Source of the DNA: Hyalangium gracile
Lineage (GTDB): Bacteria; Myxococcota; Myxococcia; Myxococcales; Myxococcaceae
Direction of reading: 5' to 3'
Length of the DNA stretch: 64,000 bases
NCBI RefSeq assembly: GCF_020103725.1
Contig: NZ_JAHXBG010000004.1
Location: 62,001-126,000 of the forward strand
The stretch's first letter is position 1. Each line of letters starts with the position of its first letter. Below, in pieces: positions 3,001-57,600 of the stretch. The position numbers were made by a program, and so were the translations under genes. A model generated the notes under the pieces. That model made no database searches. It saw only the letters and a program-made list of their open reading frames with translations, and was not told the origin of the DNA.

Positions 3001-6000
3001 CCAGGAGGCGGTGGTGCTCCTCCAGGAGCGCGGCGAGAAGCACCTGGTGGCCTACGTGGTGCCCCAGGAGCTGGAGGGCTTCCAGGAGGCCGCGGTGCGC
3101 GCGGAGCTCCAGCGCCGGCTGCCCGCGTACATGGTGCCGAAGTTCTTCATCCCCCTCGCGAAGCTGCCGGTGCTGCTCAGCGGCAAGGTGGATCGCCGGG
3201 CGCTGCTGGAGCTCAGGCCCGTGGCGCCCACGAACGCGACGGAGGAGGAGCCCCCCTCCACGCCGACCGAGCGGAAGCTGGCGGAGATCTGGCGCGAGGT
3301 GCTGGGCGTCCAGCAGGTGGGCGCCCTCGACAACTTCTTCCTGCTGGGAGGGCACTCGCTGCTGGGCACCCGCGTCATCGCCCAGGCGCGGAGCGCGTTC
3401 CAGGTGGACCTGCCCATCCGCAGCCTCTTCGAGAACTCGACGCTTCGGGAGTTCGCCGCCTTCATCGAGGCCCTCGTCGCGAAGCGAGGCTCGCTCCAGG
3501 CGCCGCCGCTCACCCGTGCTCCGGCGGGAGTGACGTCACCGCTCTCCTACGCGCAGCAGCGCCTGTGGTTCGTCGATCAGATGCAGCCGGGCAACCCCGC
3601 CTACAACGTGCCGGGAGCCATCCGCATCTCCGGCCCGCTGGACCCGGACCGGCTGCTCGCCTGTTTGCACAAGGTGGAGGAGCGGCACGAGATCCTCCGG
3701 ACGAGCTTCCAGCTCGTCGGGCACGAGGCGGTGCAGGTGGTGCACCCGCCGCATCGCCTGGTGCTGCCCGTGGAGGATCTGCGGACGCTGCCCAGGGAGG
3801 CTCGGGAGGAGGAGGTGCGGCGGCGCGCCCGCGCGGAGATGCTGCACGCCTTCGAGCTCTCCGCTGGCCCGCTGGTGCGCGTGCGTCTGCTGCGGCTCGA
3901 GGAGTCGGAGCACGTGCTGCTGATCAACATGCACCACATCATCTCGGATGGATGGTCCCTGGGCATCCTGATCCGGGAGGTGCTGGCGCTCTATGAGGCC
4001 GCGCTCGCGGGTACGACGGCCACGCTGCCCGAGCTGCCCATCCAGTACCGGGACTACGCCATCTGGCAGCAGTCCTGGCTGAGGGGCGAGGCGCTCGACG
4101 CGCAGCTCTTCTGGTGGCGCGAGCATCTGGGCGAGGCGCCGCCGGTCCTCAACCTGCCGACGGATCGGCCGCGGCCCTCGACGGTGGACCAGTCCGGGCG
4201 CACCCAGACGCTGGCCCTGCCGCCCCAGCTCTCCGAGCGCCTCCACGCGCTGAGCCGGCAGGAGGGCGTGACGCTGTTCATGACGCTGTTCAGCACCTTC
4301 CATGTCCTGCTCCACCGCTACACGGGCCAGGAGGACATGGTGGTGGGGACCTCCATCGCCGGGCGCACCCACGCCGAGATGGAGTCGCTCATCGGGCCCT
4401 TCCTCAACCTGCTGCCGCTGCGCACGCGGTTCGCCCGCGAGGAGAGCTTCCTCGAGCTGCTGCAGCGGGTCCGGCAGAACACGCTGGGGGCCTACGCGCA
4501 CCAGGAGATTCCGTTCGAGCGGCTGGTCGCGGCGCTCGTCAAGGAGCGGGACACCAGCCGCGCTCCGTTGGCGCAGGTGCTGTTCGTCCTGCTGAACGTC
4601 CCCATGCCCCGGCTGGAGCTCTCTGGCGTGAAGTTCGAGCCGCTGAGCATCCCGGGCCAGACGTCGCAGGTGGACCTGACGTTCATCTTCGATGACGGCC
4701 CCGAGGGGCTGGTGGGCACGGTCGAGTACAGCACCGCGCTGTTCAACGACGACACCATCACCCGCATGCTGGGCCACTTCCAGACCCTGCTCGAGGCGAT
4801 CGTCGAGACCCCAGGGGCGTCGCTCCAGGTGCTGCCGCTGCTGAGCGCTCCTGAGAGGGAGCAGCTCCTGCGGAGCTGGAACCACGCGCCAGTGCCTCAG
4901 CCCCTGGCTGGCACCGAGCCCATCTCCCTGGACACTCCCGTCGCCCAGCTCTTCGAGGCGCAGGCGGCTCGGACTCCCGATGCCGTCGCCGTCCAGAGCG
5001 GGGACGTCACGCTGACCTACCGGCAGCTCAACGAGACGGCCAACCGCCTCGCGCACGCGCTGAGAGAGGACTACCAGGTCCAGCCGGGCGAGCCCGTGGG
5101 CATGATGCTGGAGCGCTCCGAGCGGGCCCTCATCACGATGCTCGCCATCCTGAAGGCGGGCGGCGCCTACGTGCCCATCGACCCCGGGTACTCGAGCGAC
5201 CGAGTGAAGTACCTGCTCGACGACCTGCGCCTGCGGACGTTGCTGATCGAGTCGCACTCCATGCACGAGCTCCCGGACTTCGAAGGGAACGTGTTCGCGG
5301 TGGATCTGCAGCTCGACTCGCTCACCACCTCGGAGGCCAACCCGGCGCCGGTGAACCGTCCGGAGGACCTGGCGTACATCCTCTATACGTCCGGCTCGAC
5401 GGGACAGCCCAAGGGCGTGTCGGTTCCGCACCGGGCGATCGCGCGGCTGGTGTCGGACACGAACTACCTGCCCGTGCGTCCGAGCGACTGCTTCGGGCAG
5501 ATCGCCACCATCACCTTCGACGCGGCGACGTTCGAGATCTGGAGCGCGCTGCTGTATGGCGCCCGGGTGGTCGTCATCCCGAAGGAGGTGCTGCTGTCGC
5601 CCGAGGCCTTCGCCGCGGCCATCGAGCGCCACGGCATCACCGCGATGTTCATGACGTCCGCGCTGTTCAACCAGGTGGCCCAGCGGGTGCCGCACGCGTT
5701 CCGCACCATGCGGACGCTGCTGGTGGGAGGCGACGTCGTCGATCCGCGCTGGGCCCGCGCGGTGCTCCAGGCCGGAGCGCCCGAGCGGCTCCTGAACGGC
5801 TACGGCCCCACGGAGTGCACCACCTTCGCGCTCTGGTACCCCATCCACGAGGGCTTCAGCGGCACCACCGTGCCCATCGGCCGGCCCATCGCGCACACCT
5901 CGGTGTACGTGCTGGACCCGGCGATGAACCCGGTGCCGGTCGGCGTGCCCGGTGAGCTGTACCTGGGCGGCGTGGGCCTGGCGCATGGCTACTGGAACGC

Positions 6001-10774: not shown

Positions 10775-12363
10775 TGAGTGACAGCCCGGTGTACGTGAAG
10801 CCGAACCTGGTGATCGAGCCACTGTTCAACCAGTGGTACGCCTGGTCCTACCTGATCCCGCCGGCGACGGCGGCGATGCTCACGGCCCATCAGCACGTGA
10901 AGATCATGAAGTCCTACGTGCAGAACCCGAAGCTGCACATGGCCGCGGTCAAGCAGCCGGGGATGCTCGGCGGGCCGGTGATCGACTACGAGACCGATCG
11001 CAGCGCGGACGTCCGTGAGCTGCTGAAGCGCACCCAGGCCTCGCTCGCCGACCTCCTCCAGCTCGCCGAGGCCATCTCGGAGGCCACGGCCCTGCTCGAG
11101 CGCGAGGCCGTGGGCTACTCGATGGACGCGCTCTACGCGAAGCTCCCCGACTGCCTCCGGGGCTTCGTCGAGCTCACCTACGACTCGGCGAACCGCCCCG
11201 GGCTGCGCTTCCTGGAGGGCCTGCTCTACCGCGGCCGCTACTACCGGAGGGACTTGCAGAGCGTCATGCTCTATCCCATCGAGCAGGACCAGCGGCCCTT
11301 CATCCTGAGCACGCCGCGGCTCGAGCAGCCGGACCGACTCCACCTGCCGCTGCCCTTCGACCACTCGGGCATCGACACGCTCTTCCAGATGCAGCGAACC
11401 CCGAGGCCCGCGGGTGAGCTCTACGAGGCGCTCGGTGTCTCCTCGGGGCAGCGGAAGCTCGTGGACTCGCTCCTCACCCCGACTCCGCCGCGGCGCACGC
11501 CCCGTTACGAGGGAGAGCAGCCGAGGGTCCGATACTTCGGCCACGCCTGCGTGCTGTTCGAGAGCCGGGACGTGTCCATCCTGCTGGACCCGTTCATCAG
11601 CTACGAGTACCCGAGCGACGTGCGGCGCTTCACCTTCCAGGACCTGCCCGACACGCTCGACTACGTCGTGCTCACGCACAACCACCAGGACCACGTGCTC
11701 TTCGAGGCGCTGCTCCAGCTGCGCCACCGCATCAAGACGCTGGTCGTCCCCCGGAGCGGTGGAGATGCGCTCCTGGATCCGTCGATGCGGCTCATCTTCA
11801 AGCAGCTCGGCTTCAAGAACGTCATCGAGCTGGAGGAGCTGGAGGAGCTGGAGGTGCCGGGCGGCTCCATCATGGGCATTCCCTTCATGGGGGAGCACGG
11901 AGACCTCAGCATCCGGAGCAAGCTCGCCCACCTCATCACGCTCCAGGGGCGGCGCGCGCTGTGCGTCACCGACAGCGCCAACCTGGACACCCGGGTGTAC
12001 CAGCACGTCCACCAGCACGTCGGCAACGTGGACACGCTGTTCCTCGGGATGGAGTGCGAGGGCGCGCCGCAGTCCTGGCTCTATGGCGCGCTGCTGACCC
12101 GGAAGCTGGAGCGGAGCATGGACCAGAGTCGCCGGCTCAACGGCTCGGACAGCCAGCGAGGCCTGGAGCTCATCCACCAGTTCGGTTGCCGCAACGTCTA
12201 CGTCTACGCGATGGGGCAGGAGCCCTGGCTGAGCTACGTGGCGAGCATCCGCTACACCGCGCAGTCCAAGCCCATCGTCGAGTCCGACAAGCTGATGGCG
12301 CAGTGCCGCGGCGAGGGCATCACCGCGGAGCGCCTCTTCGGCTCCAAGGAATTCCCCCTGTAG
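10774..12363 (+). CDS. CmlA-type diiron beta-hydroxylase (MBL fold) acting on carrier-bound amino acids
   Basis: The protein has 529 residues, close to the 532 I recall for CmlA of chloramphenicol biosynthesis, which hydroxylates a PCP-bound aromatic amino acid at the beta carbon with a dinuclear iron site. The C-terminal half is a metallo-beta-lactamase fold with H302, H304, D306 and H307 in LTHNHQDH, then E374 and D400. These fall exactly three residues before the CmlA ligands I recall as H305, H307, D309, H310, E377 and D403. The glutamate, where hydrolases have histidine, is the CmlA hallmark. The N-terminal 270 residues match the expected dimerisation/regulatory region. The ATG overlaps the NRPS stop as ATGA; a GTG one codon earlier is possible. 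Coupling to the NRPS implies that it modifies an amino acid on that assembly line; which module is unknown. Confidence 0.88.
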   Translation: MSDSPVYVKPNLVIEPLFNQWYAWSYLIPPATAAMLTAHQHVKIMKSYVQNPKLHMAAVKQPGMLGGPVIDYETDRSADVRELLKRTQASLADLLQLAEAISEATALLEREAVGYSMDALYAKLPDCLRGFVELTYDSANRPGLRFLEGLLYRGRYYRRDLQSVMLYPIEQDQRPFILSTPRLEQPDRLHLPLPFDHSGIDTLFQMQRTPRPAGELYEALGVSSGQRKLVDSLLTPTPPRRTPRYEGEQPRVRYFGHACVLFESRDVSILLDPFISYEYPSDVRRFTFQDLPDTLDYVVLTHNHQDHVLFEALLQLRHRIKTLVVPRSGGDALLDPSMRLIFKQLGFKNVIELEELEELEVPGGSIMGIPFMGEHGDLSIRSKLAHLITLQGRRALCVTDSANLDTRVYQHVHQHVGNVDTLFLGMECEGAPQSWLYGALLTRKLERSMDQSRRLNGSDSQRGLELIHQFGCRNVYVYAMGQEPWLSYVASIRYTAQSKPIVESDKLMAQCRGEGITAERLFGSKEFPL

Positions 12364-12417
12364 CTTCCGCCGCTCCCGCTGTTCTGGCGGGCGTTGAGGC
12401 CAGACAATGACAACCAC

Positions 12418-12437
12418 GGTGGGAGTGGACTCCCACC
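12418..12437. terminator. Stem-loop between convergent genes
   Basis: A perfect inverted repeat has arms GGTGGGAG and CTCCCACC around TGGA. It lies 55 bp after the hydroxylase stop and 39 bp from the stop of the convergent secreted-protein gene. There is no T tract, so it is a candidate bidirectional terminator only. Confidence 0.45.
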
Positions 12438-12475
12438 ATGGCGCGCGTCATGGGAATGGCAGACGCTGCTTCAAA

Positions 12476-13051
12476 TCACTGGATGCCAACGCCCACGAAG
12501 AGCTGGCACGAGGTGGGATCAACGGCCGAGCCGGTGTCGATGTGGCACAGCCCTCCCTGCGCGCCGTACGCGGTCACGCTCACGCTCGCCGTACAGGCGC
12601 CGTTGACGACGTTGACATTGACGGTCCAGATGCAGGTCTTCGCCTGTCCAAAGGGATCGGACGGGTTGGTGGTATAGCCAAACGTCTGGGTCCACGGGGT
12701 GAGGACTGGTACGAGCGCCTGGGCCGCGCCCGAATAGGTATATGGCGTGGTGAAGTTCAGGGGGTTGGGCAGCGGGTACGGAACGCTGGAGCCCGTCAGG
12801 CTTCCGCCCGCGTAGGTGACCACGCCCGTCCAGTTCCCGATGTAGAAGGTCTCCGTGGTGTCCGCCAGCATCGGAGCGGGCCGCCCCTCGCTCCGCATCT
12901 CGCGCAGCTCCACCGTCTCGGTGGGCCGCAGAGGCGTGTACTCCGACCGCTGGGAGACGAAGTCCTCCGCGGCGGGTTTGGCGGCAACCGCAACCATGGG
13001 CGCAAGGGAAAGAAGGGGGAGGGCCAGGAAACGCTTCACGTTCCTCGTCAT
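12476..13051 (-). CDS. Secreted protein of unknown function
   Basis: A 191-residue protein with a clear Sec signal peptide (basic MTRNVKR, then a hydrophobic stretch ending in AVAA). The mature part is rich in Thr, Ser, Pro and aromatic residues, with three cysteines near the C terminus, and looks like a small beta-rich extracellular protein. The ATG is preceded by AGGAG at eight bases; a GTG two codons earlier would sit too close to that site. It converges on the NRPS-hydroxylase operon and has its own AT-richer upstream region. I do not recognise a family. Confidence 0.75.
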   Translation of the reverse strand: MTRNVKRFLALPLLSLAPMVAVAAKPAAEDFVSQRSEYTPLRPTETVELREMRSEGRPAPMLADTTETFYIGNWTGVVTYAGGSLTGSSVPYPLPNPLNFTTPYTYSGAAQALVPVLTPWTQTFGYTTNPSDPFGQAKTCIWTVNVNVVNGACTASVSVTAYGAQGGLCHIDTGSAVDPTSCQLFVGVGIQ

Positions 13052-50794: not shown

Positions 50795-50884
50795 GCGAGC
50801 TGATACCAAACGTTCGAGAGAGGACTCGGGCGCCATCGGAAGCCGCGCGGGCCCGGGGGCGGCGTGCCACCATCCGCGCTGCGT

Positions 50885-53800
50885 ATGGTCACCTACCCCG
50901 AGTCGGCTCGTGAGGCGGTGCAGCAGCTTCGTGGGCTCGCCGAGTCCCTGGCTGTTCCCGAACGAAGGGCCGCGGCGCTGACCGAGCTTCGCGCGCTGGC
51001 GCTGCTGTGCCGGGGCAAGCCGGAGGGCGCTCCGCTGCGGCTCGTCACGGTGACGGCGGCGGTGGGCTCGAAGCAGGAGCGGCTGGAACTGCTGCTGCCG
51101 CCGTCCATCTTCGCTCCCGAGGCGTGGGCGTACACGTTCCTGGAGGGGATGCTGAAGGTCCCCCTGGACGAGTACGACGGGAAGCGGCTGGTGGAGGTGG
51201 GCACGGGCTCGGGGTGGATCTGCATCGCGCTGGCGAAGTTCACGCGCCTCTCGCGCATCCACGGGGTGGACCTGAACCCGCACTCGCCCTGGGTGGCCAT
51301 CTGCAACGCGTGGCTCAACGGGGACGAGCGGATGGTGGCGCGGCTGTCCTTCGGGGAGAGCGACCTGCTGCGAGGCCTGCCCGAGGGCGCCGTCTGGGAC
51401 TTCGTGGTGGGCTGCATCCCGCAGGTGCTGCGCACGGACGGCCTGCCCGAGGCGCCCGCGGAGGCCGACACGCAGGAGCTGTATGACCTGTCCAACTACA
51501 CCGTGCTGCAGAACGTCTACGAGGACCACTTCGGCCTGGGGCTCATCGCCCGGCTGCTGGACGAAGTGCCCGAGCACCTGGCGCCGGGAGGACGGCTGCT
51601 GCTGAACCTGGCGGGCCGTCCGGGGCGGCCCATCATCGAGCGCATGTTCACCCGGCGGGGGCTCACCACGCAGGTGCGGGTGGCTCGGCGAGTCATGCAG
51701 GCGGCGGACACGGACATCCGGCCGCTGGTGGCGCTGGAGCAGCGCACGCAGCGCGAGTTCGAGTTCTTCATGGAGGCGCACAGCGCCGAGCCACTGCGGG
51801 CGGCCACCGCGCTCGGGTGGCTGCAGGCCGGGCACCCCATCTGGCACGAGGTGGCGGTGTGGGAGGCGCGGCTGGCGCTGCCGCGAGAGACGCTGGCCCT
51901 GCGCGCCGCGCTCCGGTCCCTGGGCCTGATGAAGCTGACGGAGGAGCTGGACCTGGGCATGGTGTCGCAGGAGCAACTCGGCTTCGTGGCCGCGCTGGCC
52001 GAGCGGCTGGCGCATGCGTCGACGATGCCCTACACGCACGAGGCGGGGGATGCGTCCTTCCGCCAGCTCGTGGCCCGGTACCTGGAGCGCTTCTTCGAGC
52101 TGCGGCTGCCCGAGGAGGCGATCTTCGTGGCCCCCGAGCGCGAGCAGGCCGTCTACTCGCTGCTGCTGGCGCTGTGCGATCCGGGAGATGGGGTGCTGGT
52201 GTCGCGCCAGCTGCTGCCGGTGTACGCGCGGGCGCTGGAGCGAGCCGGGGTGCGGACGACGGTGACGCACAGCACGCTGGCGGAGATCCACCAGCTGCTG
52301 GGCGCCTTCGACGTGAAGGTGGTGTTCCTCTCGGTGGAGAGGGGCGAGCGCACCAACCTGGCGGTGCTGCGGGAGATCGTCGCGGAGGCGGCGCGGCGGG
52401 GCATCTGGGTGGTGCTGGACGAGAGCGCCTTCTTCCACATCACCAGCGAGGTGGAGCCGCTCACGCTCTTCGAGTTCCTGGCCCGCGAGCCGCTGCCGCC
52501 CAACCTGGTGGTGCTCTATGGCCTCATCAAGAACGCGGTGTGGCCGGACCTGGAGCTGACGCTGCTGCTGCCGGTACCCGAGCCGCTGCGAGGGGACCTG
52601 GAGGTGGCGGCGGAGGTGACGTACTCGCGCATCGGCACGCTGGCGCAGTGGTTCTACGAGCGCACCTTCGCGGAGCTGCTGACGTTCCGCATCTCGTTCG
52701 CGGAGCAGGAACGCCCCCTGGCGGGCCGGGCTCCGGCGGTGGCCCTTCCGCGCTCGGAGCGCATCGAGCGCCTGGCGGGCTTTCCAGCCTTCGCGCCCAA
52801 GGTGTTCCGAGAGGGCGACCCCGAGCTGGTGCGCCTGGACTACGGCGAGAACGAGGGCGCCATGCCCCAGCCGCTCATCGAGGGGCTCATCGCCGCGCTC
52901 GCGGCGCCGCGAGAGGCTGGCAAGCAGCACGGGCTGGCGGAGGCGGTGGCGGGCTTCCTGCTGGAGACACGGGCGGCGCGGTATGCACCGGAGGACATCG
53001 TGCTCGGCCAGGGTGTCTGGCCGCTGGTGCATCACCTGGGCGTGGCCTTGCGTCAGCGGCTGGGGCGGGCGCCGCGCGTGTTCATCGCCACGCCCTGTTA
53101 CGGCGTCCTGCCGCCCACGTGGGTTGCGGCCGGATGCGAGGTGGAGCAGGGGCCGCTGGCGAAGCTCCAGGAGCGGCGAGGGCCGGGAGGCCCGGACGTG
53201 GCGGTCATCTCGCAGCCGTCGAACCCCGAGGGCTGCTACCTCTCGCACGAGGAGCTGGTGGCGCTGGCCACGTGGGCGGTGGAGCAGCGCGCGCTGCTGG
53301 TGTCGGATGAAATCTTCGGGCTGGTGAACCTGACCAACCCCACGGCGGAGACGGTGCACAGCCCGGTGACGCTGGAGCAGGTGGTGCCCGGCGTGGGCGC
53401 GCGCACGGTGCTGCTGGGAGGGCTCTCCAAGGAGTTCGCCGCCGGAGGCCTGCGCATGGGCTGGCTGGCGACGCGGGATAGGGCGCTCGCCACGGCGCTG
53501 CGCGACAGCGGGCTGGTGCCACCCACGCTGGCGACGGCTCGGGCGGCGGCGTGGCTCTACGCGGCGCATGCTCGCAGTCCGGAGGGGCGGCTGCTCTACC
53601 CGGCGCGCCACCGGGCCCTGCGTGAGTTCCTCGTGCGGATGCGACGGGAGCTGGCCGAGAAGCGGGCGCTCATCGCCGAGGCGCTGCCCGGGCAGGGGCG
53701 CTCCGACACCGCCGAGCTGGGAGGCCTCTTCCTGGCGCCCCGCATGAGCGCCTGGCTGGGCAAGGAGGTGGACGGAGAGCGCCTCACGCCGGAGAACCTG

Positions 53801-53953
53801 CCGCGCGTGGTGTACGCGCACACGCACGTGGTGCTCAACGGCGGCGACTGGTGCGGGGACCCGGAGCGGGTGCGCGCGGTGTTCTCGATTCCTCGCGACA
53901 GGCTGGAGCGGGCGCGCGAGCGGCTCCTGGCCTTCGCCGCCAGGCTCCAGTGA
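50885..53953 (+). CDS. Methionine S-methyltransferase-like protein (methyltransferase fused to aminotransferase-like domain)
   Basis: A 1022-residue protein with the plan of plant methionine S-methyltransferase (about 1070 residues as I recall), which makes S-methylmethionine from methionine and SAM. Segments that match from memory: PSIFAPEAWAYTFLEGM, the SAM loop VEVGTGSGW (Gly106), VGCIPQVL in place of NPPY, LSNYTVLQNVYEDHFGLGLI, QAADTDIRPLVALE, and near the end AHTHVVLNGGDWCG. Residues from about 330 form two aminotransferase-like regions. The second holds VISQPSNPEGCYLS and GGLSKEFAAGGLRMGWL, with Lys849 at the PLP position; my recollection is that the plant protein has lost this lysine. 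The start may be ATG 50885 or an upstream GTG at 50864. A strong stem-loop follows at once, so it is probably monocistronic. Confidence 0.8.
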   Translation: MVTYPESAREAVQQLRGLAESLAVPERRAAALTELRALALLCRGKPEGAPLRLVTVTAAVGSKQERLELLLPPSIFAPEAWAYTFLEGMLKVPLDEYDGKRLVEVGTGSGWICIALAKFTRLSRIHGVDLNPHSPWVAICNAWLNGDERMVARLSFGESDLLRGLPEGAVWDFVVGCIPQVLRTDGLPEAPAEADTQELYDLSNYTVLQNVYEDHFGLGLIARLLDEVPEHLAPGGRLLLNLAGRPGRPIIERMFTRRGLTTQVRVARRVMQAADTDIRPLVALEQRTQREFEFFMEAHSAEPLRAATALGWLQAGHPIWHEVAVWEARLALPRETLALRAALRSLGLMKLTEELDLGMVSQEQLGFVAALAERLAHASTMPYTHEAGDASFRQLVARYLERFFELRLPEEAIFVAPEREQAVYSLLLALCDPGDGVLVSRQLLPVYARALERAGVRTTVTHSTLAEIHQLLGAFDVKVVFLSVERGERTNLAVLREIVAEAARRGIWVVLDESAFFHITSEVEPLTLFEFLAREPLPPNLVVLYGLIKNAVWPDLELTLLLPVPEPLRGDLEVAAEVTYSRIGTLAQWFYERTFAELLTFRISFAEQERPLAGRAPAVALPRSERIERLAGFPAFAPKVFREGDPELVRLDYGENEGAMPQPLIEGLIAALAAPREAGKQHGLAEAVAGFLLETRAARYAPEDIVLGQGVWPLVHHLGVALRQRLGRAPRVFIATPCYGVLPPTWVAAGCEVEQGPLAKLQERRGPGGPDVAVISQPSNPEGCYLSHEELVALATWAVEQRALLVSDEIFGLVNLTNPTAETVHSPVTLEQVVPGVGARTVLLGGLSKEFAAGGLRMGWLATRDRALATALRDSGLVPPTLATARAAAWLYAAHARSPEGRLLYPARHRALREFLVRMRRELAEKRALIAEALPGQGRSDTAELGGLFLAPRMSAWLGKEVDGERLTPENLPRVVYAHTHVVLNGGDWCGDPERVRAVFSIPRDRLERARERLLAFAARLQ

Positions 53954-53979
53954 GCGCGAGGGCAGTCACGCCCTCGCGC
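53954..53979 (+). terminator. Strong stem-loop directly after the methyltransferase gene
   Basis: Perfect ten-base arms GCGCGAGGGC and GCCCTCGCGC with loop AGTCAC begin one base after the stop codon. This separates the gene from the radical SAM cassette that starts 65 bp further on. Confidence 0.6.
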
Positions 53980-54043
53980 CGCCAGTCGTGCTTCGCGCGC
54001 CGTCGTTCCATCTCCCCTGGTGTTTCCAGCTAACCTGGGGGCC

Positions 54044-54640
54044 ATGGCCGACTCTGACGACCTGCGTCTGAACGAGCTGCAGCGCTACCGGAAGACCTCG
54101 AGCCGGCTGGCGCTCGAGGTGCACAGCCACTGCGAGGTGCCCGCCGGGTGTGGAGGCGCCGTCCTGCGCTGGCGAAAGCCCGACGCGGATCTGGGCATCA
54201 CCCTGTCCAGCTACCTGGGCGTTGCGTCCGAGGGCTTCTTCCTGGACGGCAAGCCCATCCAGGAACAGCGAACCCTGGTTTCGCCCGGCGAGCACGTGCT
54301 CTCGTTCGTCGTCGACGAGCCCGGCAAGCAGGGCTTCCTTCTGATGGAGATCAGCCTCCGGCCCCACATTGCCTCCGCGAAGCAGTCGCAGGTCACCTCT
54401 CGCGCCGACGGACGATGGCGCGCGGCCACGCGGCAGCCTCCGGAAGGCTGGCAGCTCCCGGGGTTCGACGACTCCTCCTTCGTACCCCTCGTGGAGAAGC
54501 CCGTGTCCGAGCCGAAGGGCAGCGATCGCTGGCTGTGGGGCATGATGCAGCGTAACGCGAAGGGCCTGGGCCTGCCGTCGCCCGCGCCGCGCGCCTGGGT
54601 GCGCTGGACCTTCCGTCTCGACGTGGAGGGCTTCTCATGA
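54044..54640 (+). CDS. Beta-rich hypothetical protein, first gene of a radical SAM cassette
   Basis: A 198-residue cytoplasmic protein without signal peptide. It alternates short strands (LALEVHSHCEV, AVLRWRKPD, FFLDGKPI, HVLSFVVDEP, GFLLMEISLRP), then WRAATRQPPEGWQLPGFDDSSFVPLVEK, which resembles the galactose-binding-like edge of carbohydrate-binding modules, and ends with VRWTFRLDVEG. It contains no Cys-rich or leader-peptide-like tail. The stop overlaps the radical SAM start as ATGA. It could be a substrate-recognition partner or target protein of the downstream enzymes; no family is recognised. Confidence 0.6.
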   Translation: MADSDDLRLNELQRYRKTSSRLALEVHSHCEVPAGCGGAVLRWRKPDADLGITLSSYLGVASEGFFLDGKPIQEQRTLVSPGEHVLSFVVDEPGKQGFLLMEISLRPHIASAKQSQVTSRADGRWRAATRQPPEGWQLPGFDDSSFVPLVEKPVSEPKGSDRWLWGMMQRNAKGLGLPSPAPRAWVRWTFRLDVEGFS

Positions 54641-55932
54641 ACCGCCCCTCGCTCGTCCTCATCCCGCAGCACTTCGGAGCGCTCCTCTTCGACCGGCGCT
54701 CGTCCCGATATCTGCCGTTCGATCGGTCCGCCGCCGCCGTGCTCCATGCCATGACCGAGCGTCCCGCGGGCGACGTCATCGAGGCCTCGGCCCCGGAGGA
54801 CCGGGACGCCGTCGAGGGGCTCGCCGTGGACCTCGCCGGCCGGGGCTATCTCCGGCTGGACGGACGGCTCGCGGCCGCGCGCATCGATCGGGAGCCGCCC
54901 TCGGAGCACCTCCTGGGCCCGCTGGCGGTGCACCTCGAGGTGGTCGGTGCCTGCAACCTGACCTGCACCCACTGCTTCGCCGGCGAGCTGCCGCGCAACC
55001 ACCACCCGCTGACCCTGGCCGAGATGGACTCGCTCTTCTCGCAGCTCGCGGAGCTCGGCAGCTTCCGGCTCGGGCTCACGGGCGGCGAGCCGCTGCTGCG
55101 CAAGGACCTCCTGGACATCCTCGACTCGGCGACGGGGCATGGGCTGCACCCCTGCCTCACGACCAATGCGCTCCTGCTCAACGAGCGCATCGCCCGCGAG
55201 CTGGGGAAGCGGGAGCTGGTGTGGCTGAACGTCTCGCTCGAGGGCGCCACCGCGGAGACGAACGACGCCGTCCGAGGCCAGGGCGTCTTCGCCCGCGTCA
55301 TCGAGAAGCTGGAGCTGCTGGGCCGCCACGCCCGCTTCACGCTCGCCTTCACGCTCACCCGGAACAACCTCTCCGAGGTGGAGGCGTGCGTCGAGCTCGC
55401 GCGACGTGTCGGTGCGCACACCGCCGTGTTCCGTCCCCTGTACCCCGTGGGGATCGCGGCCCGTACGCCGGACCTGATGCCCTCCTTCGAGGGCTACGTG
55501 GACGCGCTCGCCCGCCTCGAGCGCGTCGAGGCCGACAATGACCTCTTCGCCATCGATCCCTTCAGCCCCTCGGCGCGAGAGGAGCTCCGAGGCGTGGTGA
55601 CGCAGGGCCCCGGCTGCGGCGCCGCGAACACGGTGGCCTCCATCTCCGTGCAGGGAGACGTGAACCCCTGCAGCTTCCTGGGCCGCGACTTCGAGTCCGG
55701 GAACGTGCGGCAGCGGCCCTTCGAGGCCATCTGGCGCGAGGGCCATGCCTTCCGGCGCATGCGCGCCAGCGCGGAGGGAGACCGCTTCACGGGAGGCTGC
55801 CGGGCCCGGGCGCAGTTCTTCGCCGGCTCGGCCTATGCGGAGGACCCCTGGCAGGCCCAGGCTCGCGGCCCGCGCCCCGAGCGCTGGAGCCTGCCCGTCC
55901 TCAACGGCACGCAGGAGGGCTCATGTCGCTGA
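54637..55932 (+). CDS. Radical SAM/SPASM protein with N-terminal PqqD-like domain
   Basis: A 431-residue enzyme. Residues 10-90 look like a PqqD/RRE domain (FGALLFDRRSSRYLPFDRSA ... LAVDLAGRGYL), which binds peptides. The radical SAM core has the C106-x3-C110-x2-C113 iron-sulfur site in ACNLTCTHC, GLTGGEPLLRKDL (SAM binding), and LNVSLEGA. The C-terminal part carries GPGCGAANTVASISVQGDVNPCSFLG and GGCRARAQ, a SPASM/twitch-like auxiliary cluster region with at least three Cys. PqqE, MftC and other RiPP or quinone-cofactor maturases share this build. The gene overlaps both neighbours, so the three proteins are made together. The substrate is unknown. Confidence 0.85.
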   Translation: MNRPSLVLIPQHFGALLFDRRSSRYLPFDRSAAAVLHAMTERPAGDVIEASAPEDRDAVEGLAVDLAGRGYLRLDGRLAAARIDREPPSEHLLGPLAVHLEVVGACNLTCTHCFAGELPRNHHPLTLAEMDSLFSQLAELGSFRLGLTGGEPLLRKDLLDILDSATGHGLHPCLTTNALLLNERIARELGKRELVWLNVSLEGATAETNDAVRGQGVFARVIEKLELLGRHARFTLAFTLTRNNLSEVEACVELARRVGAHTAVFRPLYPVGIAARTPDLMPSFEGYVDALARLERVEADNDLFAIDPFSPSAREELRGVVTQGPGCGAANTVASISVQGDVNPCSFLGRDFESGNVRQRPFEAIWREGHAFRRMRASAEGDRFTGGCRARAQFFAGSAYAEDPWQAQARGPRPERWSLPVLNGTQEGSCR

Positions 55933-56999
55933 TCGATGACGCCATCGCTCGGGCCCAGGAGCTGCGAGCGAGCGGAGACCTCACGACTGCCGCCGACACG
56001 CTCGACGCGGTGGCGCCGCAGGACCGCGAGCGCGTGCTGCCGCTGCTGCGAGAGCTCCTCGATGCGCTCGCCGTCAGGGAGCACGGCCTGGTGTTCCGCT
56101 ACATCCCAGCAGGGACGTTCGTCATGGGCAGTGACTCGGGCGACCCGGACGAGCGCCCGGCCCACAAGGTGACGCTGCCGGCGTTCTGGATCAGCGAGGT
56201 GCCGCTCTCGTGGGATGCCTTCACCCGCATCCTCGGCTGGCCGTCCCCGCCCACGTCGCCCTCGCAGGAGCAGCTCGCGTCCGTCGCGGAGGCCTTCGAG
56301 GGGCAGCAATCGGACGTACGCTTCCTCTATTACAACGACTCGAAGATCCGGCTGCAGTACTGCGAGAACGACACCCTGCAAGCCAGGGACTGGCACGCCC
56401 ACGACACCGAGGGGCGCTGGGAGAAGGAGGACGGCAGCGTGCTGACCTCGCAGGAGCTCTTCGGCACGCCCGAGCGCTCGAGCACGGCTCCCCTCCGCTT
56501 CGATCAGAAGCCGATGGTCGCCGTCGACTGGCCGCTCGCCGAGCTGATGGGCCGCCGCATGAGCACGAAGGCCGTGCAGTACCGGCTGCCCACGGAGGCG
56601 GAGTGGGAGCGCGCGGCCCGAGGCTGCTTCCGAGGCGCCGCCTACCCCTGGGGCGATGCGCCGCCCGACAGCACCCGGGCGGACTTCGACCGCTTCAAGG
56701 ACTTCTCCCTGCGTCCCCTGCGCGCCTTCCCGCCGAACGACTATCACCTCTTCTCCATGGCCGGCGGCATCTGGGAGTGGTGCGCGGACCACTACGACGC
56801 GACCTTCTACTCCCGAAGCCCGCGCGCCTCGCCGCTGTGCGTGCTGGGCAAGGAAGTCCGCGAGCGCGCCCACGTGCTGCGCGGTGGCTCCTGGGCCGAC
56901 TGTGGCGACGCGCTTCGGGTGAGCTTCCGCTCGGCCAGCACGCATGGGAGCACGCCCAACGTGGGCTTCCGCCTCGTGCGCGTGCCCGGGTCTCCCTGA
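55923..56999 (+). CDS. FGE-sulfatase/SUMF1-family protein
   Basis: A 358-residue protein. A helical leader (1-60) is followed by the formylglycine-generating-enzyme fold: IPAGTFVMGSDSGDPDERPAH, VQYRLPTEAEWERAARG, YPWGD, NDYHLFSMAGGIWEWCADHY, RGGSWADCGDALRVSFRS and VGFRLVRV. A true FGE needs two Cys in its GGS segment; here one Cys is seen and the second position is not Cys, so copper-dependent formylglycine formation is doubtful. Family members also act as iron-dependent oxygenases (EgtB, OvoA) or as structural partners. It overlaps the radical SAM gene by ten bases, implying a joint pathway. Confidence 0.85.
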   Translation: MSLIDDAIARAQELRASGDLTTAADTLDAVAPQDRERVLPLLRELLDALAVREHGLVFRYIPAGTFVMGSDSGDPDERPAHKVTLPAFWISEVPLSWDAFTRILGWPSPPTSPSQEQLASVAEAFEGQQSDVRFLYYNDSKIRLQYCENDTLQARDWHAHDTEGRWEKEDGSVLTSQELFGTPERSSTAPLRFDQKPMVAVDWPLAELMGRRMSTKAVQYRLPTEAEWERAARGCFRGAAYPWGDAPPDSTRADFDRFKDFSLRPLRAFPPNDYHLFSMAGGIWEWCADHYDATFYSRSPRASPLCVLGKEVRERAHVLRGGSWADCGDALRVSFRSASTHGSTPNVGFRLVRVPGSP

Positions 57000-57054: not shown

Positions 57055-57600
57055 TCAACGGCTCCGTCGCTTGCGCTGGATACCGTGGAGGCTGACCTGC
57101 TGTTGAAGCCGGGTGATCTCCCGCTGCGCGCGCTCGAGCTCCTGCTCGTATCCCCGACCGAGCTCCGCGAGCGCCGCCTTGTTCCCGAAGCTGAAGAGCG
57201 CCCGTAGCCTGCTCAGCAGCGAGCCATCGTGGGCGCCGCGCCGCGCCTGGGCCTTCCGCAGCTCGAAGGAGGTGGCCTCCAGCTGCTTCTTCAGCCGCTG
57301 CGTCTCGTCCCGGGCCCGCCCGGCCTCCTTCCGGGCCAGGGCCACCTCCGCCTCGAGCCCGGCGAGCTGCTCCGCGACGGCCTTCGAGTGGTCCTCGCGG
57401 AGCGCCGCGTTCTGCTGCTCCAGGGTGCGCACCCGCTCGCGCAGCCCTTGCATCTCCTGCTCCACCGCTTGCCGGGCCGCTGTGTGCCCGGTGCGCTCGC
57501 GCGCCTCCAATTCCGCCTGGAGCCGCTTCACCTCCGCCTGGGTCCTCTCGAGCAGGTCCCTCAGCTCGCGCTCCTCGCTCTTCGCCACAGTTCGGCCCAT
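57055..57600 (-). CDS. Coiled-coil hypothetical protein
   Basis: A 181-residue protein, almost wholly coiled coil: charged heptads from about residue 8 to 115 (ERELRDLLERTQAEVKRLQA ...), a break with LSRLRALFSFGNKAAL, then a second coil to a basic tail ending QRKRRSR. It has no signal peptide. It is convergent with the FGE-family gene (56 bp). The function is unknown; a scaffold or gliding-machinery-type helper is conceivable but not shown. Confidence 0.7.
   Translation of the reverse strand: MGRTVAKSEERELRDLLERTQAEVKRLQAELEARERTGHTAARQAVEQEMQGLRERVRTLEQQNAALREDHSKAVAEQLAGLEAEVALARKEAGRARDETQRLKKQLEATSFELRKAQARRGAHDGSLLSRLRALFSFGNKAALAELGRGYEQELERAQREITRLQQQVSLHGIQRKRRSR

Follow-up and report, generated by a model that had tools for sequence, protein, structure and literature searches.

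A conserved three-gene cassette of Hyalangium gracile encoding a radical SAM enzyme, an FGE-fold protein, and a predicted lectin-like protein with an invariant CEVPAGCGG motif

Within a 64,000-nucleotide stretch of the Hyalangium gracile genome (assembly GCF_020103725.1, contig NZ_JAHXBG010000004.1, positions 62,001 to 126,000; hereafter, the window), three overlapping genes, designated A, B, and C, encode a 198-residue beta-rich protein, a radical S-adenosylmethionine (SAM) enzyme, and a protein with the fold of the formylglycine-generating enzyme (FGE). This A-B-C cassette is a genuine, conserved set: A and B were adjacent in all 21 loci compared, the window included, and C followed them in 20. 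Near its N terminus, A carries the nine-residue motif CEVPAGCGG, which was kept in every locus. On balance, we consider A to be precursor-like, its two-cysteine loop being modified by B, probably with the help of C.

The cassette and the invariant motif of protein A

The features on which this reading draws are the following.

54044..54640, + strand: gene A, 198-residue beta-rich protein, proposed substrate (open reading frame [ORF])
54044..54130, + strand: A residues 1-29, leader-like stretch (LxLNxLxRYxKxS...LE), with a short helix at residues 9-15 modeled at low confidence
54131..54157, + strand: A residues 30-38, CEVPAGCGG, proposed modification site (alignment)
54176..54637, + strand: A residues 45-198, predicted lectin/carbohydrate-binding-module-like jelly roll (AlphaFold2 [AF2] model; superposed part about 45-167)
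54637..55932, + strand: gene B, radical SAM enzyme, 431 residues (ORF and Pfam)
54652..54840, + strand: B residues 6-68, predicted RiPP (ribosomally synthesized and posttranslationally modified peptide) recognition element (RRE)/PqqD-like domain, with beta-beta-beta/alpha-alpha-alpha order in the AF2 model
54952..54975, + strand: B CxxxCxxC (C106, C110, C113), radical SAM cluster, invariant in 21/21
55615..55800, + strand: B C327, C345, and C388, auxiliary-cluster cysteines, Twitch-like, invariant in 21/21
55923..56999, + strand: gene C, FGE-fold protein, 358 residues (ORF, Pfam, and PDB profile)
56361..56402, + strand: C insert QYCE..T..A.DWHAH, with C147, H158, and H160 invariant in 20/20, between the two segments aligned to FGE 6muj
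56901..56903, + strand: C residue C327, aligned, with a gap of one residue, to the first copper cysteine of FGE, present in 19/20

All three genes lie on the forward strand, with overlaps of 4 bases (A/B) and 10 bases (B/C), as an initial annotation made from the sequence had described. An in-frame GTG at 54020 is a possible start of A, but the alignment of the homologs begins near the ATG at 54044. When A (E ≤ 1e-5) and B (E ≤ 1e-60) were searched separately in 96 genomes of the family, both were present in the same nine (the window's own included), always as neighbors. A scan of a species-genome collection with exact short peptide patterns of B, an approach that misses distant members, matched 71 stretches, of which 12 were confirmed as loci: two from Myxococcus (the same as the family loci L038 and L039, counted once), three from Streptomyces, five from Actinomadura, one from Thermomonospora, and one from a Chloroflexi metagenome-assembled genome (MAG). 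With the window, the eight other family loci, and two found through a profile of the A N terminus, the set amounts to the window plus 20 loci from Myxococcota, Actinomycetota, and the single Chloroflexi MAG. The locus of this MAG (L032) is the one without C, which suggests that C is accessory, although the MAG is perhaps incomplete. The initial annotation had reasoned that its idea of a system would weaken if the homologs were rarely adjacent elsewhere; adjacency proved to be the rule.

The motif stands out from the rest of A. In an alignment of 19 rows that includes several close Myxococcus relatives, residues 30 to 38 were identical in all rows, against mean identities of 0.52 to 0.59 in the body of the protein, and this nine-column invariant run, the longest in the alignment, was reached by 1 of 100,000 column shuffles. 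Across the 21 loci, every one of the nine positions showed synonymous codon differences, which places the constraint on the protein. Conservation extends to both sides of the motif: L9, N10, L12, R14, K17, S19, L24, and E25 of the leader-like stretch were invariant in 21 rows, as were E31 within the motif and V40, W43, and R44 after it. A degenerate DNA pattern of the motif had a single match in the whole genome (11.7 Mb in 81 contigs), inside A. The N terminus of A had no NCBIfam match in 13 members, and a literature search for the CEVPAGCGG string returned no paper. The initial annotation had suggested that A may itself be the target or else a recognition subunit; an invariant two-Cys block behind a leader-like N terminus, matched once in the genome, agrees with the first of these, while modification itself is something that we infer.

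In all 21 loci the leader-like and core-like N terminus is joined to a lectin-like body. The Chloroflexi MAG locus holds, in addition, a stand-alone version: a 39-residue ORF (3875-3994) before the full-length A contains the leader and a second copy of the motif and stops four residues after it. Compared with those of the neighboring A, the motif codons of this ORF have three synonymous changes and no amino acid change. Between positions 3875 and 4583, the short ORF is followed by a PBECR2-like gene (under the Pfam cut-off) and a DUF2283 gene, and then by the full-length A. A search for small ORFs common to the 1.2-kb flanks (157 directed pairs, the result resting on the best-ranked ones) gave no segment with a BLAST match (E ≤ 1e-3) in more than two other lineages, although very short peptides could escape it; the segments that matched two other lineages came from the tRNA region of L036, L069, and L070 and its immediate surroundings.

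Predicted architecture of A, B, and C

No Pfam family matched A at E ≤ 1. Its AF2 model, built from 19 rows, has a mean predicted local distance difference test (pLDDT) score of 84, with residues 1 to 13 below 50, and places the motif in a loop between strands 23-30 and 38-44 (pLDDT of about 60). In structural comparisons with VIA, in which a Z score below 8 can mean merely a common arrangement, the model superposed on a Pleurotus lectin (6kbq; Z 6.5, root mean square deviation [rmsd] 3.6 Å, 114 residues) and on GH78 rhamnosidases (Z 6.1 and 5.2), and the seven best rows (rmsd 3.1 to 3.6 Å) started at residue 45 or 49. A sequence profile of A also matched the rhamnosidase 3w5m (E 3.9e-6; best stretch, 27 positions). 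Since Foldseek found nothing for the model in the PDB at E ≤ 0.001, the lectin resemblance rests on the VIA scores of 5.2 to 6.5 and the 27-position match to 3w5m. We conclude that part of the predicted body of A (about residues 45-167) resembles a lectin or GH78 carbohydrate-binding jelly roll, at middling Z. A is set apart from the GH78 rhamnosidases by having no glycosidase and by its N-terminal leader and motif, which, as superposition on the carbohydrate modules begins at about residue 45, look as if they had been added to a body of the carbohydrate-module type.

Protein B matched Pfam Radical_SAM (E 2.7e-20) and SPASM (E 5.4e-8). In each of the best 25 of 73 NCBIfam rows it fell below the curated cut-off, with MftC at the top (142.4 bits against 265). 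The AF2 model of B gave the lowest Foldseek E value to SkfB (1.4e-14), followed by CteB and SuiB, all of them RiPP maturases; by TM-score SuiB came slightly above SkfB. In alignments to CteB (5wgg) and PqqE (6c8v), B kept the positions of the first auxiliary cluster (AuxI), and all the cysteines of the second (AuxII) were absent; C173 was also invariant in 21/21. B is thus predicted to combine an RRE, a radical SAM domain, and a one-cluster Twitch-like domain; like that of A, this domain fold comes from modeling. The initial annotation had named B a PqqD-radical SAM-SPASM enzyme. Its radical SAM and SPASM parts match in Pfam, but without the AuxII cysteines the latter is Twitch-like, and its PqqD-like domain, for which Pfam PqqD gave no match at E ≤ 1, reappears as the RRE order of residues 6 to 68 in the model. 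PADLOC matched B to viperin models only, which is expected of any generic radical SAM protein, and had no matching model for A or C. We also observed, in 17 of the 21 B proteins, a ragged cysteine-bearing C-terminal tail (SCR, TCC, SCG, etc.; 55918-55929 in the window), a possible extra cluster ligand.

SkfB has been described as an RRE, a radical SAM domain, and a Twitch domain with three visible AuxI ligands and an open site; in CteB, a cysteine of the substrate ligates the open AuxI site (PMC6231123). B resembles these sactisynthases in its predicted RRE, radical SAM domain, and Twitch-type single cluster with three cysteines. The differences lie around it: the proposed substrate is a 198-residue lectin-like protein instead of a short bacteriocin precursor, and no shared protease or exporter was seen beside A-B-C in the part of the flanks that was scanned.

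Protein C matched Pfam FGE-sulfatase (PF03781; E 9.4e-42) and aligned to FGE 6muj (E 1.7e-38) over profile positions 189 to 343, with a weak segment at 63 to 106. It shares the FGE-sulfatase fold with the FGE structures (6muj and 2q17) but differs from them by an extra N-terminal segment, by the subfamily insert with invariant C147, H158, and H160, and by the loss of a cysteine. Of the two cysteines that ligate copper in FGE, only the first has a counterpart, C327; no cysteine occurs in the 11 residues after this position in any of the 20 C proteins. The missing second copper cysteine rules out C as a canonical FGE. An iron-binding DinB domain, an N-terminal trait of the EgtB and OvoA sulfoxide synthases, had no Pfam match in C at E ≤ 1. 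From sequence conservation, C147, H158, and H160 form a possible metal or active site, and C may be a metalloenzyme of another kind or a subunit with a holding role. It defines an FGE-fold subfamily with different conserved Cys/His residues. Hence, of the FGE-type oxygenase that the initial annotation had seen in C, the fold stands but one of the two copper-ligand cysteines is gone, and the suggested two-step modification is weakened both by this loss in all 20 proteins and by the MAG that has A-B without C.

A proposed modification of A and the competing explanations

We envisage that the A chain comprises an N-terminal leader (about residues 1 to 29), CEVPAGCGG, and a lectin-like jelly roll. 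The RRE domain of B would hold the leader, and B would modify the motif with a 5'-deoxyadenosyl radical and its single auxiliary Fe-S cluster. The likeliest product would be, by analogy with SkfB, a carbon-sulfur crosslink from C30 and/or C36, a preference that follows from the likeness of B to SkfB and CteB and from the three AuxI cysteines that B keeps. In a second step, C would act on, hold, or protect the same loop, possibly through a Cys/His site that belongs to C itself. Once modified, the loop would stay in mature A and equip the lectin-like domain with a site that is reactive or binds a ligand, and in Streptomyces the unit would work inside a conflict-type operon with effector-associated domains (EADs), trypsin, and NTPases. 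The steps are not equally secure. That B modifies A seems to us probable; a role in conflict (defense) is plausible, if short of an even chance, and both thioether chemistry and an enzymatic action of C on A are put forward more tentatively than that. The most far-reaching version, a horizontally spread module in which a radical SAM-made, FGE-fold-assisted crosslink or reactive group in the loop of A arms a sensor or effector of EAD-type immunity in multicellular bacteria, is speculative, and we think it unlikely as a whole. If the proposal is true, the trio would represent a new route by which an unusual chemical group is installed in an entire protein, a RiPP-like modification retained in a folded lectin-like protein and not in a small peptide, at nine exact residues that can be named.

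Several observations weigh against this proposal. The model of B is only moderate (mean pLDDT of 68), and the next NCBIfam rows after MftC were AhbD and NirJ2, enzymes of heme synthesis; AhbD and NirJ-type enzymes act on tetrapyrroles, not on peptides. As the loop of a folded protein, the modeled motif could be invariant because it binds a metal, forms a disulfide, or lies at an interface, and B may have another target elsewhere in the genome, one without the motif. The short ORF of the Chloroflexi MAG has its first 48 coding bases equal to those of A and, to judge from sequence, may be either a stand-alone precursor or a duplicate truncated by the inserted gene pair. For C, the second FGE copper cysteine had a counterpart in 0 of 20 proteins, and the whole Chloroflexi MAG gave no match at E ≤ 1e-20, whereas each of the other eight genomes of that search has one. 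Finally, the EAD context was found in 3 of 21 loci, two of these being close relatives.

In PQQ-type systems, a separate RRE-carrying partner is normal, and A could likewise be a recognition subunit, itself unmodified, that offers B and C a peptide or protein whose gene lies elsewhere while CEVPAGCGG binds a metal or forms a disulfide. The position of the motif in a hairpin of the folded model and the lectin-like part of the body are compatible with this. However, B has an RRE-like domain of its own in the model, which would make a second recognition subunit unnecessary, the motif pattern occurs at no second place in the genome, the flanks hold no widely shared small ORF (within the limit for very short peptides), and one genome has a stand-alone copy of leader and motif. 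We regard this explanation as unlikely, about on a par with the far-reaching version above. Less likely still is that A and C are two lectin-fold invader sensors, with B as a conflict-system effector acting on something else. EAD1, EAD7, trypsin, and NTPase genes do flank the trio in three Streptomyces loci, and NPCBM and FGS domains have been proposed as intracellular invader sensors (PMC8195603), but many relatives of B act on peptides, and C, with 83 invariant positions in 20 rows, is well conserved, unlike the published FGS domains diversified by diversity-generating retroelements. Such a division of labor would also leave the conservation of the A motif unexplained.

The trio might also turn A into an enzyme subunit by making a redox cofactor out of the protein itself, as happens in quinohemoprotein amine dehydrogenase. 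B would then make Cys-to-Glu or other thioethers and C would oxidize a side chain, with C30, C36, E25, E31, and W43 as raw materials, and W43 and both glutamates are indeed invariant in the 21 rows. QhpC, QhpD, and QhpG follow the same order, a leader-bearing protein substrate receiving radical SAM-made thioethers before an oxygenase acts, with Trp43 oxygenated while Cys37 is free (PMC7876137). By analogy, not homology, the two systems are alike in having a leader-bearing protein substrate, a radical SAM enzyme, and a second oxidative protein. Here, however, the place of the flavoprotein is taken by the FGE-fold protein C, whose redox role is putative, no subtilisin-like protease, heme subunit, or other catalytic partner was seen nearby, and the body of A is lectin-like; the likeness in numbering between A and QhpC is a coincidence. 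We consider this the most improbable of the three alternatives to modification of A by B as proposed above.

No system with this exact set was known to the initial annotation, and our searches of the literature for radical SAM enzymes combined with formylglycine/SUMF1, RiPP, or conflict terms agree: among the matches listed, titles and abstract openings describe no such set (subscription papers and supplementary tables being outside the scope).

Genomic surroundings and spread of the trio

In Streptomyces, the trio is tied to a conflict-type operon. A Pfam scan of 17 chosen flanking proteins placed the trio of L031 between a trypsin-EAD1 protein, an EAD1-EAD7 protein, and a protein with EAD7 and an NTPase region (an AAA_16 match under the Pfam cut-off); the EAD1-EAD7 gene overlaps or abuts the start of A, and the EAD7/NTPase frame overlaps the end of C. 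The last gene of L027 encodes EAD7 with NACHT/AAA_16 matches below the cut-offs, and the remaining neighbors of the trio in L027 and L034 belong, by blastp, to the same cluster. Genes for Ser/Thr kinases occur close to the trio in L028, L029 (by blastp cluster), and L031. Trypsin-type genes adjoin the cassette in the Streptomyces loci and follow C in L030, and were seen nowhere else among the proteins scanned, none of which is a metallopeptidase. No EAD context was seen at the window or the other loci, in flanks that were partly scanned. As a separate observation, in L044, a distant member of the family, a Hint/pretoxin-HINT-like protein (11980-12654, minus strand) adjoins the cassette.

In multicellular bacteria, EADs, trypsin, and NTPases are marks of conflict systems, in which radical SAM-SPASM peptide modules have been reported (PMC7159879), as have, apart from these modules, FGE-fold (FGS) domains (PMC8195603). 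The passages compared, taken from the main texts of these two papers, contain no module with an N-terminal motif fused to a lectin. Among the systems described there, the MoxR-vWA ternary modules with FxSxx, RxD, or acidic peptides (PMC7159879) are similar in placing a radical SAM-SPASM enzyme near conflict genes of multicellular bacteria, with an NTPase nearby, as in the Streptomyces loci. They differ from the trio, which has no zincin peptidase among the 17 flanking proteins, no C-terminal FxSxx-type peptide, a motif at the N terminus, joined to a lectin-like body, and an FGE-fold partner.

The distribution of the trio is sporadic. The six other genomes of the genus of the window had neither A (E ≤ 1e-5) nor B (E ≤ 1e-60). 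In the phylum of the window, the profile of the A N terminus matched 9 of 195 genomes, and in that of the Chloroflexi MAG it matched 3 of 400; two of the latter (L065 and L066) were rejected as chance motif matches, one spanning two stop codons and the other extending over 14 model positions within a long open frame. Around Streptomyces sparsogenes it matched 1 of 396 genomes of the phylum and 1 of 297 of the family, both being that genome itself, and in the family of Actinomadura spongiicola 6 of 200, four of them already in the locus set. The Chloroflexota (400) and Actinomycetota (396) samples are even draws from larger groups, and a lack of matches in them does not prove absence. The carriers are scattered soil bacteria.

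The neighborhood differs between lineages, and the trio therefore seems to move as one block. The distances measured between pairs of loci for A, for B, and for C are correlated at 0.95 to 0.98, a value that shared ancestry alone explains in part or in full. Among the 15 loci and the window in which tRNA genes were sought (L038, L039, L040, L042, and L043 being left out), L036, L069, and L070 have a tRNA-Tyr gene that ends 18 to 106 bases ahead of the likely start of A, a hint of insertion beside tRNA genes. A plasmid search gave no match, and viral contigs contained no CEVPAGCGG motif and, for B, one remote 34% fragment.

At the window itself, the initial annotation had bounded the cassette by an upstream terminator and a convergent gene downstream. 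The terminator did not hold up: a scan found no intrinsic terminator with a T-run upstream of A, where there is the following element, read from the sequence.

53954-53979, + strand: perfect 10-bp G+C hairpin without a T-run, after the upstream gene

The convergent gene is present as an ORF at 57055-57600 on the minus strand, downstream of C, with Pfam matches that are all below the curated cut-offs and largely of coiled-coil type. The upstream gene (50864-53953, plus strand) encodes a 1,029-residue protein that combines a methyltransferase region at its N terminus with aminotransferase-like regions, an architecture that, we presume, recalls plant methionine S-methyltransferase.

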